Virus record (IMG/VR): IMGVR_UViG_3300021964_000136
Span: 1 to 45,173 of that record
DNA: 45,173 nt
Direction: 5' to 3' (one strand)
Source: a virus
A program made the translations under genes and the position numbers. Under the pieces are notes generated by a model. It made no database searches, was not told the DNA's origin, and was given only the letters and a program-made list of their open reading frames with translations. Within the stretch, counting starts at the first letter, position 1, and each line of letters begins with the position of its first letter. This document shows positions 4,458 through 13,607 of the stretch, piece by piece.

Positions 4458-4779
4458 GTGTAGTATTTACTACTACTGACTCAATTGTGCCTATATTATC
4501 TGGTTTTTTGCTGGGTGCTCTGGCTAACTCTATAAATGTAAGCATGTCACCGGTGTTCTCAAAGTAAATTCTCCATATATTGTCGCTACCAAGTGTAGAC
4601 ATATAGAGTAAACCTTGTCCATACTCATCGAAGTGCGATACTAAATCAAATATAGTATCGTCTTCTGTTGTATTAGAATAAATGCAAATTTTGTTTTTCA
4701 TTAGGTTCTCATAGGTTGGAGTACCTTTCAAACCTTCTAGTTCACCTACACCTAATTTTTTACTTACGTGAATCTTCAT
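4444..4779 (-). CDS. hypothetical protein
   Basis: 111 residues, no family recognised. The start overlaps the stop of the metallopeptidase/VWA gene as ATGA, and the end overlaps the amidinotransferase start by 14 bp, so the three are very likely translated from one message. The sequence is soluble and mixed alpha/beta in character (MKIHVSKKLGVGELEG; then IYFENTGDMLTFIELARAP), with no membrane segment. Confidence 0.65.
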   Translation of the reverse strand: MKIHVSKKLGVGELEGLKGTPTYENLMKNKICIYSNTTEDDTIFDLVSHFDEYGQGLLYMSTLGSDNIWRIYFENTGDMLTFIELARAPSKKPDNIGTIESVVVNTTHDAE

Positions 4780-6002
4780 GCTTTATATTTTACCGATACA
4801 CCGTATGGTGCTTCTGGAGTTCTGCCACCGTAGCCAGAACCATGAATTATAAACAATGTATCACAGTATGTTTCATCGCCCCAACTACCCCATGGGTAAC
4901 CATCTGTGAATACAATTAACTTCTGTGGTACAATGTCTTCCTCTTTGAGTCTATCAAACATACAATCAAACTCAGTACCGCCACCGCCTTCAATTTCAAT
5001 ATCATAAATGTCATCTACGTTAGTAGAATCAAACTCATGAATAGTGTATGTAGATGTGTCAAAGAAACAAAGTCTAAGTTTGAAGTTAGTGTATTGCTCC
5101 ATGCAACCTTTTACTTCGCTTAGAAGGTCTCTAAGCATTTCATCTGACATAGAACCGGAACTATCAATAAAGCAGAACACATCTAAGTCTGTGTCGTAGT
5201 CCATACCAGGAAGGTAAACGTGTTCAGCAATACCTTTTCTAGCAGGTCTCATAAATGTAAAGTCATTCTTTACAACACTTTGAATATTGGTAGCAAGTAA
5301 CTCTCTCCAATCTAACTCAGGATTAGTAAGATCCTTAATCATCTTTCTAACGCCATTAGGAAGATCTTTGTTACCAGCACCTTTGGCCGCATTCATTACG
5401 GCTTCTTTTACTTCGTCATTGATCTGTTGTCTTTCTTCTTTAGAATACTTTGGTGGCCCGTCTTGTTGATCACCACCTTCACCTTTACCTTCAGCACCTT
5501 GACCGTCACCATCTTCATTACTGAAGTCTAAATGCATGTCAAGTGTTTCTTCAGTAATCTTTTCTGCGTTCTCGTACAAGTCGTCGTATATCTCATCTGA
5601 AATCCAGTTTTGATATTTGTAGTCAAAACAGATATTAACTTTGGTAATTCTCTTACCAATATTATTTTCAACTAAGTCCATGTTCACAACATAGTCATTT
5701 GCTATGTTCCAAAGACGAGGATCTCTATTACCACGTCTATCCATGTGATCATAAACATTATGGAGAACCTCATGACCCATTAAAAAGATAAGTTCGTCAT
5801 CATCTAATGACTGGATAAATTCTGTATTATAAAAAAAGTATCTGCCATCTGTTGCGGCAGTCGGGCACCAATCGGATGCTTCTTGTAATTGTAACCTAGT
5901 TGCTAAGTTACCAAAGAAACCATTCTTAAGAAGTAATTGCACTCTAGCAGTTATTAATCTGTCCTTTACTGCTTGATCTGTATTTTGTGCTAAATTGTTC
6001 AT
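4776..6002 (-). CDS. putative metallopeptidase with VWA-like domain (DUF2201 type)
   Basis: 408 residues. The N-terminal domain has a zinc-protease HExxH (FLMGHEVLHNVYDH, about residues 74-87), as in DUF2201 N-terminal putative metallopeptidases. An acidic Gly-rich linker (about 155-190) leads to a von Willebrand A-like domain whose MIDAS motif is DSSGSM (in CFIDSSGSM, near residue 280), followed by GGGGTEFD and VFTDGYPWG. Such proteins usually work with a MoxR-type AAA+ ATPase, and one is encoded just upstream at 6159-7238. Its own class I promoter and a TAGGAG site precede it. Whether the protease site is active is not known. Confidence 0.85.
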   Translation of the reverse strand: MNNLAQNTDQAVKDRLITARVQLLLKNGFFGNLATRLQLQEASDWCPTAATDGRYFFYNTEFIQSLDDDELIFLMGHEVLHNVYDHMDRRGNRDPRLWNIANDYVVNMDLVENNIGKRITKVNICFDYKYQNWISDEIYDDLYENAEKITEETLDMHLDFSNEDGDGQGAEGKGEGGDQQDGPPKYSKEERQQINDEVKEAVMNAAKGAGNKDLPNGVRKMIKDLTNPELDWRELLATNIQSVVKNDFTFMRPARKGIAEHVYLPGMDYDTDLDVFCFIDSSGSMSDEMLRDLLSEVKGCMEQYTNFKLRLCFFDTSTYTIHEFDSTNVDDIYDIEIEGGGGTEFDCMFDRLKEEDIVPQKLIVFTDGYPWGSWGDETYCDTLFIIHGSGYGGRTPEAPYGVSVKYKA

Positions 6003-6030
6003 TGTGTGTTCTCCTACAAACTATACTTAT

Positions 6031-6059
6031 ATTATACTAAAAATTACCAGAGAGGTCAA
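6031..6059 (-). promoter_or_regulatory. sigma70-like promoter, class I
   Basis: TTGACC (6059-6054), 17 bp, TATAAT (6036-6031) preceded by TTTTTAG. It drives the metallopeptidase, the 111-residue protein and the amidinotransferase. Confidence 0.8.
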
Positions 6060-6081
6060 CCTATTATTTGGATAAAAGGAT

Positions 6082-6158: not shown

Positions 6159-7238
6159 CTAGTCGATGTTCATATACTTACCGTATCTTTCAACCCACTC
6201 ATCGATACGTTCAACATCTGCAAAGTCTACATCAATATCATACTCGCTCAATGCAATTTTACAACCAAGTACACACATTTCTGGTTCAAAGTTATCCATT
6301 AAGAAGTTAATGAAGTTATTAAACGACGATGTGAGTTCTTTGTCATCACCACTATCTTGGATATTCTTAAGTTCGTAACTCATACCAACTGTAAGAGCAT
6401 ACTTTGAAGATATCTCAAGTTTCTTCAACTCCTTGACCTTACCTGAAAGGATTTCAGAAGGCTTAGGAAGTTTAGAAGCATTCTTCTTGTGATTCATAAA
6501 CTTAATTGCCATGCCTTCGCCAACCAAACCTGTAACAATATCCATTTCCTCTTCATGAGTCATGTCACTGTCTTCCAGCATTTGGCTAACGAATGCCCAA
6601 GACCTTGGAGTAGCAAAACTCCTACTTGAACTCTTTGGATCAAAGTCAAAAAGGTCTTGTTTAGCAAAAGCCAAGTAACCAACAACATCTGGGTTGATAT
6701 CATTATCAACTGCCCAAGACTGCCAATCGTCATGATTAACTTCAACTTCTAAGTGAAGGAATCTGTTTGCTAAAGGACTTGGCATCCTGTAAGTAACACC
6801 TTTATCAGTGTCTCTGTTACCAGCCGCCGCAATTACCACGTTATCTGGTAATTGATATTGTCCAACTCTACGGTTAAGAATCAACTGGTAAGCAGTTGCC
6901 TGCACACTTGGAGGTGCAGAGTTAAGTTCGTCTAAGAACAAGAAGACAGTTTCATACTGGCTAGCAAGTTCTTCTGATGGTAGTTCGGCAGGTGCCGCCC
7001 ACATCATTTTGTTAGTGTCCTCATCTCTGTAAGGATACCCTTTGATATCTGTTGGGTCTAGCAAAGCCATTCTCAAATCAATTAAAAGGTTATTACCTTC
7101 TTCAGCGATCTGAGCCAGTACGTCGGACTTACCAACTCCTGGAGGACCCCAAATAAATACAGGACGTTTTTTATTAAAAGCACGTTTGATGTGGCTCTTT
7201 GCCCTGCTTAGTTTTACTGTTCGAATGTTATCTGACAT
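6159..7238 (-). CDS. MoxR-type AAA+ ATPase
   Basis: 359 residues. Walker A is GPPGVGKSD (about residues 31-39), Walker B is VFLFLDELNSAPP (about 95-107), sensor 1 is IAAAGNRDTDKG (about 136-147), and the PSPLANRF block carries the arginine finger region. This matches MoxR/CobS-like AAA+ proteins, which remodel partner complexes together with VWA-domain proteins. The partner is probably the metallopeptidase/VWA protein encoded directly downstream; the two are separated by a terminator and a promoter, so they can be expressed at different levels. Its own promoter is at 7274-7302. Confidence 0.88.
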   Translation of the reverse strand: MSDNIRTVKLSRAKSHIKRAFNKKRPVFIWGPPGVGKSDVLAQIAEEGNNLLIDLRMALLDPTDIKGYPYRDEDTNKMMWAAPAELPSEELASQYETVFLFLDELNSAPPSVQATAYQLILNRRVGQYQLPDNVVIAAAGNRDTDKGVTYRMPSPLANRFLHLEVEVNHDDWQSWAVDNDINPDVVGYLAFAKQDLFDFDPKSSSRSFATPRSWAFVSQMLEDSDMTHEEEMDIVTGLVGEGMAIKFMNHKKNASKLPKPSEILSGKVKELKKLEISSKYALTVGMSYELKNIQDSGDDKELTSSFNNFINFLMDNFEPEMCVLGCKIALSEYDIDVDFADVERIDEWVERYGKYMNID

Positions 7239-7302: not shown

Positions 7303-7495
7303 CCTTTTCTTTGTTATTTTTCAAATTAAATGTTAATTCAACCAAATAGCCTAGTTCTTGCAACTGTTCTAACCTAAGGAATACATCGCTATCAGAATAG
7401 ATCTTAGGGTCAGATATCCAATTATGTTTACCTGCCCTAGCACTGAACTTATCTAAATAGCGAAGTTTATAATCCAAAGACTCAACGTATTCCAT
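7280..7495 (-). CDS. small hypothetical protein
   Basis: 71 residues (MEYVESLDYKLRYLDKFSAR...), no family recognised. It is coupled to the upstream gene by a TAATG overlap. Its 3' end contains the -35 element of the AAA+ gene promoter, so its last codons serve two roles. Confidence 0.6.
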   Translation of the reverse strand: MEYVESLDYKLRYLDKFSARAGKHNWISDPKIYSDSDVFLRLEQLQELGYLVELTFNLKNNKEKVDLGQVF

Positions 7496-7965
7496 TATGC
7501 TGTTTGTTGAACACCTGAAAGAACATCACTAGTGATGTCCTTGAAACCCCATTTATCAACAATGTTATATGAATCTTCTACTGAATCATACACAATGTCG
7601 CCTACTGAAAGAGAGTGCATGTCACGATATGTAACAACCTCACCATCTTTCCTAGTGAACGTCTTCATTTTGAAACCACTTACGAATGTGTCGAACCACT
7701 GATCTAAACCAGTGTCGTCATCATAGTAGTAACCATTCAAAATTTTGAATACTTCTTCTAAGTTGCTGTCTTCAAATTGAGCAACTTCGCAAACTTGGGT
7801 ATAATGATTAAACATTTCTCCCTTGAAACCTTCGGCACCATGCATCACTTCCATGTGTGCATTGTACTCAGGATATTTTTCAGCGGCACCTGTGTGTCCT
7901 CTGTCATTAGAATTAACGAAGTCTGTTACTTCGTCACTTAACTTGATTTGAAATACTTTATACAT
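7495..7965 (-). CDS. hypothetical protein
   Basis: 156 residues, acidic and soluble (MYKVFQIKLSDEVTDFVNSN at the start). It is the first gene of a two-gene unit with a class I promoter at 7999-8027 and a GGTAGGAG leader. No motif points to a function. Early expression is suggested by the host-like promoter. Confidence 0.65.
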   Translation of the reverse strand: MYKVFQIKLSDEVTDFVNSNDRGHTGAAEKYPEYNAHMEVMHGAEGFKGEMFNHYTQVCEVAQFEDSNLEEVFKILNGYYYDDDTGLDQWFDTFVSGFKMKTFTRKDGEVVTYRDMHSLSVGDIVYDSVEDSYNIVDKWGFKDITSDVLSGVQQTA

Positions 7966-7998
7966 AAAAACTCCTACCTTTTTACAAATTATGCATAT

Positions 7999-8027
7999 AT
8001 TATACTAAATTTTGTGGGTATGGTCAA
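7999..8027 (-). promoter_or_regulatory. sigma70-like promoter, class I
   Basis: TTGACC (8027-8022), 17 bp, TATAAT (8004-7999) preceded by TTTAG. It drives 7495-7965 and 7280-7495. Confidence 0.8.
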
Positions 8028-8064
8028 CCTATTTCCGTAAAAATTGTATGATTTTCGCACAAAT

Positions 8065-8072
8065 GATAAATA
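8065..8072 (+). promoter_or_regulatory. T4-like late promoter on the plus strand
   Basis: GATAAATA on the plus strand, identical to the element before several structural genes on the other strand. The predicted start near 8078 would make a leader of about 107 nt before the 41-residue ORF. Confidence 0.5.
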
Positions 8073-8076
8073 CTTC

Positions 8077-8116
8077 TGTAACACGATTGTAACATAGAGT
8101 TTGATAGTCTGTAACA
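8077..8116 (+). repeat. three phased TGTAACA repeats
   Basis: TGTAACA occurs at 8077-8083, 8088-8094 and 8110-8116. The spacings are 11 and 22 bp, so all copies face the same side of the helix. They overlap the predicted late start and could be protein-binding sites or RNA elements. Confidence 0.45.
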
Positions 8117-8160
8117 GAGCCCATTAGGGATGAAGTTACTGCAAACCTACTAGCAGTTTT
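8110..8160 (+). promoter_or_regulatory. structured 5' leader, possible cis-acting RNA
   Basis: Within the leader, GTAAC (8111-8115) can pair with GTTAC (about 8135-8139) around an inner CCC-ATTA-GGG hairpin. A second stem CTGC/GCAG follows. The layout (compact junction, then a short ORF) recalls glutamine-responsive 'downstream-peptide' RNAs of marine cyanobacteria and phages, but the conserved core of that class is not clearly matched. Treat as a candidate structured RNA only. Confidence 0.35.
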
Positions 8161-8184
8161 GTTAGAATATCACAGGAGAATAAC

Positions 8185-8310
8185 ATGGCGAAGTCCTTAG
8201 GAATAGTAGCCAGTGCAACTCATCGTTTCGCATTGGTCACTTGGAAAAAATTAGATACACTGATGAAATCAGGTCGTATGGAAAACGTGCAAAATATTAT
8301 TGCATCGTAG
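8185..8310 (+). CDS. 41-residue protein on the opposite strand
   Basis: ATG at 8185 with CAGGAG about 6 nt upstream, TAG at 8308-8310. The product begins MAKSLGIVASATHRFALVTW and ends MKSGRMENVQNIIAS. It is basic, with one amphipathic stretch and no membrane segment. It is one of only two plus-strand genes found, with its own late promoter, leader and terminator, so it forms a complete separate unit. I recognise no family. Chance is less likely because of the good ribosome site and the terminator 12 nt after the stop. Confidence 0.65.
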   Translation: MAKSLGIVASATHRFALVTWKKLDTLMKSGRMENVQNIIAS

Positions 8311-8321
8311 ACACAACCACT

Positions 8322-8348
8322 AAAAAAGGGTCCTAGGACCCTTTTTTT
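8322..8348. terminator. bidirectional terminator
   Basis: A6-GGGTC-CTAG-GACCC-T7 is symmetrical, so it can end transcription from both sides. It lies between the convergent 8185-8310 (plus) and 8365-8577 (minus) genes. Confidence 0.85.
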
Positions 8349-8364
8349 ATACAGAACCAAATAC

Positions 8365-8577
8365 TTACTTTTCGTTTACGAATGCGTAAAGTTCTTGTGC
8401 TGTGCTTATTACCTCATCAGTAGAGATAGCAATAACAGGTGCTTTTTCACCTTTTCTATCTTCTTCTGGAATGCTGTAAAATGAATGTGTGGCTTGATCT
8501 CTGTTATTTTCTAACAGTCCCATTGCCATACCTAAGATATCGGTTCGTAGTTCGAACCCACTTTTTCCTTGTGACAT
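8365..8577 (-). CDS. small conserved T4-like phage protein
   Basis: 70 residues. The start, MSQGKSGFELRTDILGMAMG, resembles a small protein seen in many T4-like marine phages (a GFELR motif plus a predicted helix), of unknown function. AAGGAG lies just upstream of the ATG. A weak AGTAAATA element at about 8625-8632 might be its late promoter. It ends at the bidirectional terminator. Confidence 0.65.
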   Translation of the reverse strand: MSQGKSGFELRTDILGMAMGLLENNRDQATHSFYSIPEEDRKGEKAPVIAISTDEVISTAQELYAFVNEK

Positions 8578-12716: not shown

Positions 12717-13607
12717 CTATTTGCCAATAGCATTACCATAAATGTGTACGTGAACTCTACTAGTGTAATTGTATCCACGTTGTATGGCTTCATCGGCTAT
12801 GCTGGCCTCTGTTTGCACAAGGCCTTCAAAGGTGCCGCCAACTCCCATAATCCATACAGGGAAGTTACAGCCGGCATCTCTAAATGCTTTAGTGTGTTCT
12901 TCTACTTCTCTCCAACTTTCATCTGTGCCATTTACCACATACTTCAATTGACCATGTGGACTTACTTCAGCATATCTGCCTATTACTTCTGGCTTGATTG
13001 CTTTCTTGTTCTTCTCACCAGCAGTACTCCACAGTTTAGGACTTAAACTCCAGTACCATTCAGAACCATTGGCCCAGGCTGGATATTCACGTTGTATGTA
13101 TTCAGCAAACTCGTCTGTGATAGGCTTTGTGCCATTTGTTTCTACAGTAACATTCATAGGTTGATTGTTTCTGCGTTTAAATTCTTCTATAACTTGCATC
13201 ATACCAGGCTGTGTGTTTTTAAGCATTGGCTCGCCGCCTGTAAACACCATGTGTACTGGTTGTTGTGTAACTGGGTGTACAAACTTACCATGCGGTAGAA
13301 GTGCTGTAAGTTCGTCTACGGCCTCTTCTACAGTTTTATCAGTAATTAAATGTTTATACTTCTTACTCCAAGTATAACTGCTATCACAACCTTTTTCAAA
13401 CACAGGCAAATCAAATACATTGTCTATATTTGTAATATCTATTGTTTCATATGGTAGTTCATATGTGCTAGGGTCTGTTGGGTCTTTTTGTCCAAAGCCA
13501 TTGCATTGTAAGTTACATAGGAAAAATCTCATCCACAGACTAGGTATGCCTACATACTTGCCTTCGCCTTGTGCAGAATAAAATGTTTCGCTATACTTTA
13601 ATGTCAT
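12717..13607 (-). CDS. queE: QueE, 7-carboxy-7-deazaguanine synthase (radical SAM)
   Basis: 296 residues. The family start (YSETFYSAQGEGKYVGIPSLW), a TGGEPML motif (about residues 123-129) and VTVETNGTKP identify QueE, which converts CPH4 to CDG in 7-deazaguanine synthesis. The iron-sulfur motif is unusual: Cys31-x3-Cys35 is followed by GFGQ instead of a third nearby Cys, and the likely third ligand is Cys74 in FEKGCDSSYTW. FolE is immediately upstream, QueD and DpdA elsewhere in the window, so the pathway is consistent. Confidence 0.88.
   Translation of the reverse strand: MTLKYSETFYSAQGEGKYVGIPSLWMRFFLCNLQCNGFGQKDPTDPSTYELPYETIDITNIDNVFDLPVFEKGCDSSYTWSKKYKHLITDKTVEEAVDELTALLPHGKFVHPVTQQPVHMVFTGGEPMLKNTQPGMMQVIEEFKRRNNQPMNVTVETNGTKPITDEFAEYIQREYPAWANGSEWYWSLSPKLWSTAGEKNKKAIKPEVIGRYAEVSPHGQLKYVVNGTDESWREVEEHTKAFRDAGCNFPVWIMGVGGTFEGLVQTEASIADEAIQRGYNYTSRVHVHIYGNAIGK

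Follow-up and report, generated by a model that had tools for sequence, protein, structure and literature searches.

A micropeptide unit of marine phages with a T4-type late promoter, a putative PhoB-type operator and a counterpart beside a PhoB/PhoR-like pair in SAR86

A short transcription unit recurring in marine phages is probably a copy, carried by phages, of a gene that serves as the output of a PhoB/PhoR-like two-component system of the SAR86 type. The window analysed here, meaning the whole stretch of DNA, is a 45,173-nt IMG/VR virus record (45 kb) with a T4-like DNA polymerase and tail genes. Two points, drawn from sequence comparison and missing from the preliminary description of this DNA, carry this reading: the TGTAACA repeats of the unit resemble a PhoB-type operator, and its peptide belongs to a family that SAR86 encodes beside a PhoB/PhoR-like pair. 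The phage operator is made of the same 11-bp-phased TGT(A/C)ACA repeats as those found 5′ of the SAR86 micropeptide gene. More tentatively, and with doubt outweighing conviction, we propose that a lytic phage has put a host two-component output micropeptide behind a late promoter that starts at the host regulator's operator. Host signalling would then gate a late gene whose product feeds back on the sensor kinase, giving a captured feedback loop.

The unit runs on the plus strand in the order late promoter, phased repeats, folded leader, 41-codon ORF and terminator. Its genuine neighbours are all on the minus strand, with a divergent gene (7495–7965, start 7965) on one side and a convergent gene (8365–8577) on the other. 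The preliminary description had presented an isolated plus-strand unit opposed to all its neighbours, complete with late promoter, well-initiated 41-codon ORF and strong terminator, and every element proved to be in place (8065–8072; 8174–8310, including AGGAG; 8322–8347). The terminator (8322–8347) is symmetric, with arms AAAAAAGGGTCC/GGACCCTTTTTT and a perfect, self-complementary inverted repeat AAAAAAGGGTCCTAGGACCCTTTTTT; it is probably bidirectional, serving the convergent minus-strand gene too. Outside the unit, a divergent sigma70-like promoter (7999–8027, minus strand; TTGACC-17-TATAAT, 11/12) belongs to the neighbour gene 7495–7965. Minus-strand promoter-plus-leader repeats, ~76–79% identical, were observed at 34–101, 6015–6065 and 7965–8034; several copies also occur in relatives, resembling a dispersed early promoter cassette. 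Elsewhere in the window, a MoxR-type ATPase (4776–6002; best match PA5oct-like Pseudomonas jumbo phages, 50%) is followed by a VWA-like protein (6159–7238), forming a RavA/ViaA-like pair in a phage, and a QueE-like radical SAM protein (12717–13607; phrog_2076) suggests 7-deazaguanine DNA modification.

The octamer NATAAATA, which defines a T4-type late promoter when found upstream of the same phage's late genes, lies at 8065–8072 (plus strand) as GATAAATA. Exact copies of GATAAATA occur six times in the window; the other five all lie 23–104 nt 5′ of same-strand ORF starts, and the genes behind them include tail-fibre and structural genes. Across the 41 aligned units ATAAATA is invariant (41/41), 3–5 nt ahead of the repeats. 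These form a box at 8077–8094 (half-sites TGTAACA at 8077–8083 and 8088–8094), the single perfect copy of TGTAACA-N4-TGTAACA in the window, which conforms to the Pho-box repeat (7-bp TGT(C/A)A(C/T)A direct repeats, 4-bp spacers, 11-bp period) and lies at the expected transcription start. Scored against a PhoB matrix derived from ChIP-seq data (59 E. coli sites; PMC10294691), the box reached 13.8 bits, the top site of the window, in comparison to a median of 14.0 for the 59 E. coli sites. By matrix score alone, ~1.5 equally good sites are expected per window-sized random sequence. The case for specificity comes from recurrence across contigs: all unit contigs (46/46) carry the box, in almost every case as a single copy, and the reversed control gave 2. 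The TGTAACA repeats are thus read as probably a PhoB-type operator, the putative target of a regulator. Three TGTAACA copies at 11 and 22 bp had been described, and copies at 8077, 8088 and 8110 are indeed present, but the copy at 8110 is an arm of leader hairpin P3 and does not extend the operator, whose true third 11-bp register (8099) is degenerate in this unit. TGTAACA arrays of 11-bp period were also seen in four unrelated viral contigs, 5′ of an ORF beginning MAQNGGGRGW, and occurrences of the 18-mer of the box in unrelated loci were set aside as belonging to a different context.

Initial loci were collected via neighbouring genes; similarity starts at the late promoter, and the unit is located at differing genomic places in relatives. 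A pattern for the ORF start, which did not select for the repeats, returned 62 stretches representing 49 distinct units, all of which (49/49) had NATAAATA, 3–5 nt and two TGTAACA-type half-sites. The reciprocal pattern, ATAAATA-N4-box, which did not select for the ORF, was run on 2.9 million viral contigs and returned 53 stretches (43 distinct). The same ORF start followed in 38 of these 43 loci and a version with one change in three; of the remaining two, one carried another core peptide and one was cut off. The unit is a recurrent cassette in ~50 distinct marine phage loci. Comparison with related phages had been suggested earlier, lack of conserved stems or ORF counting against the unit; both stems and ORF are conserved. 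Searches of the INPHARED cultured phages with the unit, three peptide queries and the secreted protein described below gave no meaningful match, the short queries limiting sensitivity, and neither box nor peptide was found in the 148 of 156 kb read of phage C48C1, which has the nearest regA. Among the 46 unit contigs PstS was found in none (0/46) and phoH in 13.

The ORF (8185–8310, plus strand, ATG 8185) follows a Shine-Dalgarno sequence AGGAG (8174–8178), GGAGAA being nearly invariant in the unit alignment (A1), and its 36 homologous short ORFs are all open. Selection at the protein level was evident in the ORF core (pN/pS 0.41; 0.30 among close pairs). Synonymous divergence (pS) was 0.114 in the first nine codons (8185–8211) versus 0.696 in the core, so the leader's constraint on nucleotides may reach past the start codon; the low value is partly biased by the search pattern, and the independent promoter-plus-box scan recovers the same start. 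The core micropeptide (WKKLDTLMKSGRMENV, 8242–8289) belongs to a family defined in the present analysis, of 26–28 aa with the motif [FW]xKFxxxMKSGRxxKV, to which the window ORF conforms (alignments A2, A4) and which has stand-alone homologues of 26–30 aa in phages and SAR86. In eight units the first product is a secreted protein of at least ~100 aa, and a stand-alone peptide of 26–33 aa comes next; in several of these two-gene units the secreted-protein gene ends immediately before the peptide ATG or overlaps with it. By this comparison the window ORF is the fused form, the start of the secreted-protein gene (MAKSLGIVA) being joined to the core peptide.

Stand-alone core peptides with the box were found in four further phages. 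Many marine phages have the core peptide but no box; the gene then follows regA, a 2OG oxygenase gene or a terminase gene, or it follows or overlaps phoH, so peptide function does not depend on the operator. One group of five loci includes a core micropeptide directly 3′ of the phage phoH, and in another group it lies after regA and before hsp20. The peptide is predicted to form a single basic helix (pLDDT 72), which does not discriminate between roles, and the core has no evident membrane-spanning segment. Pfam and PHROGs gave nothing useful for the peptide, including no Pfam match at E ≤ 10 to the DUF1127 or MgrB small-protein families, and a fold search with the secreted-protein model gave no significant match.

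One unit, L231, has kept the box and lost the leader hairpin. Together with the presence of the box in all units, and with phage copy number climbing late in infection, this would suit a DNA decoy, whereby replicated phage genomes titrate the host regulator via the operator and the peptide is secondary. We consider such titration distinctly unlikely, as each contig has only about one box, and promoter, leader and selected ORF are all conserved although a decoy would need none of them.

The core peptide was also found in SAR86 chromosomes among public genomes, with matches down to E = 3e−14. There its gene directly follows the genes for a response regulator and a histidine kinase, and gspC–gspD lie 3′ of it. 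The peptide occurred in 24/199 genomes of the SAR86 order (E ≤ 1e−3), ~20 of which shared the synteny of PhoR-like kinase, peptide and gspC/gspD, and in 0/368 other genomes of the wider Gammaproteobacteria. For the regulator, the best NCBIfam model was PhoB (239–243 bits, under the equivalog cut-off of 296); for the kinase, the best models were PnpS, WalK and PhoR (PhoR 229–253 bits, under its cut-off of 334). Three to four repeats of 11 bp (TGTCACA/TGTAACA) are arrayed in the gap between kinase and peptide, and the strict box occurred at one place per genome in 6/6 whole SAR86 genomes, always at the peptide locus. Across 13 distinct SAR86 promoters, TTTAC is fixed 28–30 nt before the box (35 in one) and a TATAAT-like hexamer ends immediately before it; the SAR86 operator, like the phage operator, thus appears to lie over the expected start site. 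Most SAR86 boxes precede the peptide without a phage-type leader. At least one SAR86 genome shows the two-gene phage layout: its locus L398 has the order kinase, box, secreted protein, peptide remnant and gspC, and the L398 secreted protein matches that of a phage unit (L210, E = 2e−21). In L398 and a second locus (L363) of the same SAR86-order genome, the peptide frame after the secreted protein appears shifted by one base, through assembly error or decay. PstS was not found in five SAR86 genomes, nor PhoU in six (some incomplete), so the pst/phoU hallmark of a classical Pho regulon is missing there and the pair may sense something other than phosphate. A search of SAR86-order genomes for infected cells, with the DNA polymerase of the window as query, gave one distant match (30% identity) and no infected SAR86 cell, and SAR86 is for this reason a presumed host.

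The same box does occur elsewhere in the position of a classical activator site. It lies, in identical form, ahead of pstS in other phages, where five pstS-like genes show TGTAACA-N4-TGTAACA with TAAATA ~10 bp downstream, the classical Pho promoter layout. In the wider SAR86 order it is also found ahead of secreted proteins and TonB receptors, four of the latter having a −10 TATAAA ~12 bp after it. These promoters, and the PhoB control of cyanophage genes (PMC10976474), would be in keeping with classical Pho-box activation, in which host PhoB~P switches the unit on from a sigma70-type −10 after the box and the peptide is a phosphate-starvation product, like cyanophage pstS. For the present unit we regard activation as unlikely. 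No −10 element ~10 bp after the box was conserved in the 41 phage units, and the 13 SAR86 peptide promoters showed no −10 excess after it; the SAR86 box runs into the Shine-Dalgarno sequence, leaving little room, and the phage has a late promoter in front instead. Another candidate role for the product is in late lysis, as an antiholin or in superinfection exclusion, the micropeptide gene having simply borrowed its regulatory DNA from the host. A late promoter, a predicted single basic helix and an N-terminus derived from a signal peptide would all suit such a product, yet the core lacks an evident membrane-spanning segment and, in host chromosomes, the gene is found at a signalling locus rather than a lysis locus, which makes this role very improbable.

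The leader (8078–8164, plus strand) is predicted to form one long nested hairpin, a topology predicted in nearly all of the 41 leaders (family mean folding z −2.3). Fold prediction gives an outer stem P1 (8079–8083/8160–8164 and 8085–8090/8153–8158) and a stem P2 (8095–8097 plus 8099–8103/8142–8149), enclosing the inner hairpin P3 (8111–8139; GTAAC/GTTAC 8111–8115/8135–8139, CCC/GGG 8120–8122/8127–8129). Covariation was scored on P3, the alignment over P1 and P2 being unreliable, and reached 0.513 versus 0.199 ± 0.019 in shuffled alignments; 91% of P3 cells were paired (73% shuffled, 32–43% when slid), with two-sided changes in 8/9 pairs. The compensatory stem changes proposed earlier as a sign of structure, and which characterise an unclassified cis-acting structured RNA, are therefore present in P3. 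The nested hairpin of the preliminary description is borne out by the family fold and P3 covariation and not by the single sequence, as the window leader alone is unremarkable (z −0.59; −1.68 with exact ends) and structure is evident only at the family level. Rfam covariance models gave no match to the unit at gathering score and nothing relevant at E ≤ 10, which excludes glnA and Downstream-peptide RNAs. The earlier remark that no class matched clearly agrees with this search, whereas the likeness to riboswitch-small-peptide units finds no relevant model and no sign of a ligand. Its suspicion of a structured RNA or a small peptide was well placed on both counts, given leader covariation and protein-level selection on the ORF core.

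Could the leader account for the repeats? If TGTAACA were kept as part of P1 of a cis-regulatory RNA (a riboswitch or protein-binding leader), the long nested fold with its P3 covariation, and a nucleotide constraint reaching into the first nine codons, would be expected. However, both TGTAACA copies are nearly invariant in spite of variable 3′ partners, a constancy that base pairing by itself would not demand; most SAR86 boxes precede the peptide with no such leader, L231 has the box without the hairpin, and no Rfam class applies. We therefore hold this explanation to be quite unlikely.

Under the preferred reading, that of a copied two-component output gene, the phosphorylated host response regulator would bind at ~+1 to +29 and block late transcription, and we propose that synthesis of the peptide would then fall late in infection, while the regulator is inactive. 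Repression is suggested by the position of the operator, which in phage and host alike spans the expected start site. The leader hairpin may shield the mRNA 5′ end and present the ribosome site. The peptide, as a basic helix, might modulate the sensor kinase or the regulator and so keep host signalling in a condition that benefits the phage; this action is proposed from genetic linkage and by analogy with DUF1127–PhoR and MgrB–PhoQ. In the window phage, the two-gene form of secreted protein plus peptide would have collapsed into one 41-codon fusion. Regulator binding and SAR86 as the host are likewise put forward from sequence comparison.

If correct, this would reveal a micropeptide family that the abundant, uncultured SAR86 of the ocean share with the phages presumed to infect them, linked to a two-component pair whose streamlined host genomes seem to lack the usual phosphate machinery. 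It would provide a concrete, testable target for the SAR86 pair and, for phages without an assigned host, a candidate marker of that host. The phage would have copied a regulatory output together with its operator, not a metabolic gene, and may be tapping into, or tampering with, host signalling.

Several known systems share parts of this arrangement. The glnA and Downstream-peptide RNAs (RF01739, RF01704; PMC2864571) likewise occur in marine microbes as structured 5′ leaders ahead of short conserved ORFs, but their covariance models do not match here. DUF1127 small proteins (YjiS, Agrobacterium SDPs) bind PhoR (PMC12501420) and, like the present peptide, are short, basic and associated with the PhoB/PhoR pathway; the present peptide has no Pfam match to them at E ≤ 10, and its gene adjoins the kinase and is phage-borne. 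MgrB, the feedback inhibitor of PhoQ (PMC8404706), is similarly tiny and belongs to the regulon of the very kinase that it restrains, a control that for the core peptide is presumed. MgrB, however, is a membrane protein of the PhoP regulon, whereas no membrane segment is evident in the core peptide, and the operator of its gene overlies the start site. PIT4, from Pseudomonas phage LSL4, is a phage protein aimed at host histidine kinases (PMC10714779), as the core peptide may be, but it is an early gene, and the abstract does not report likeness to host output genes or operators. Also comparable are the cyanophage genes under host PhoBR control, namely pstS of P-SSM2 and genes of S-PM2d (PMC10976474), in which a phage gene also carries a host PhoB-type box. 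The repeat differs (TGTAACA here, PyTTAAPyPy(T/A) in cyanobacteria), as does the cargo: pstS is found in 0/46 unit contigs, the box comes after the promoter, and the gene would be the host pathway's own micropeptide.
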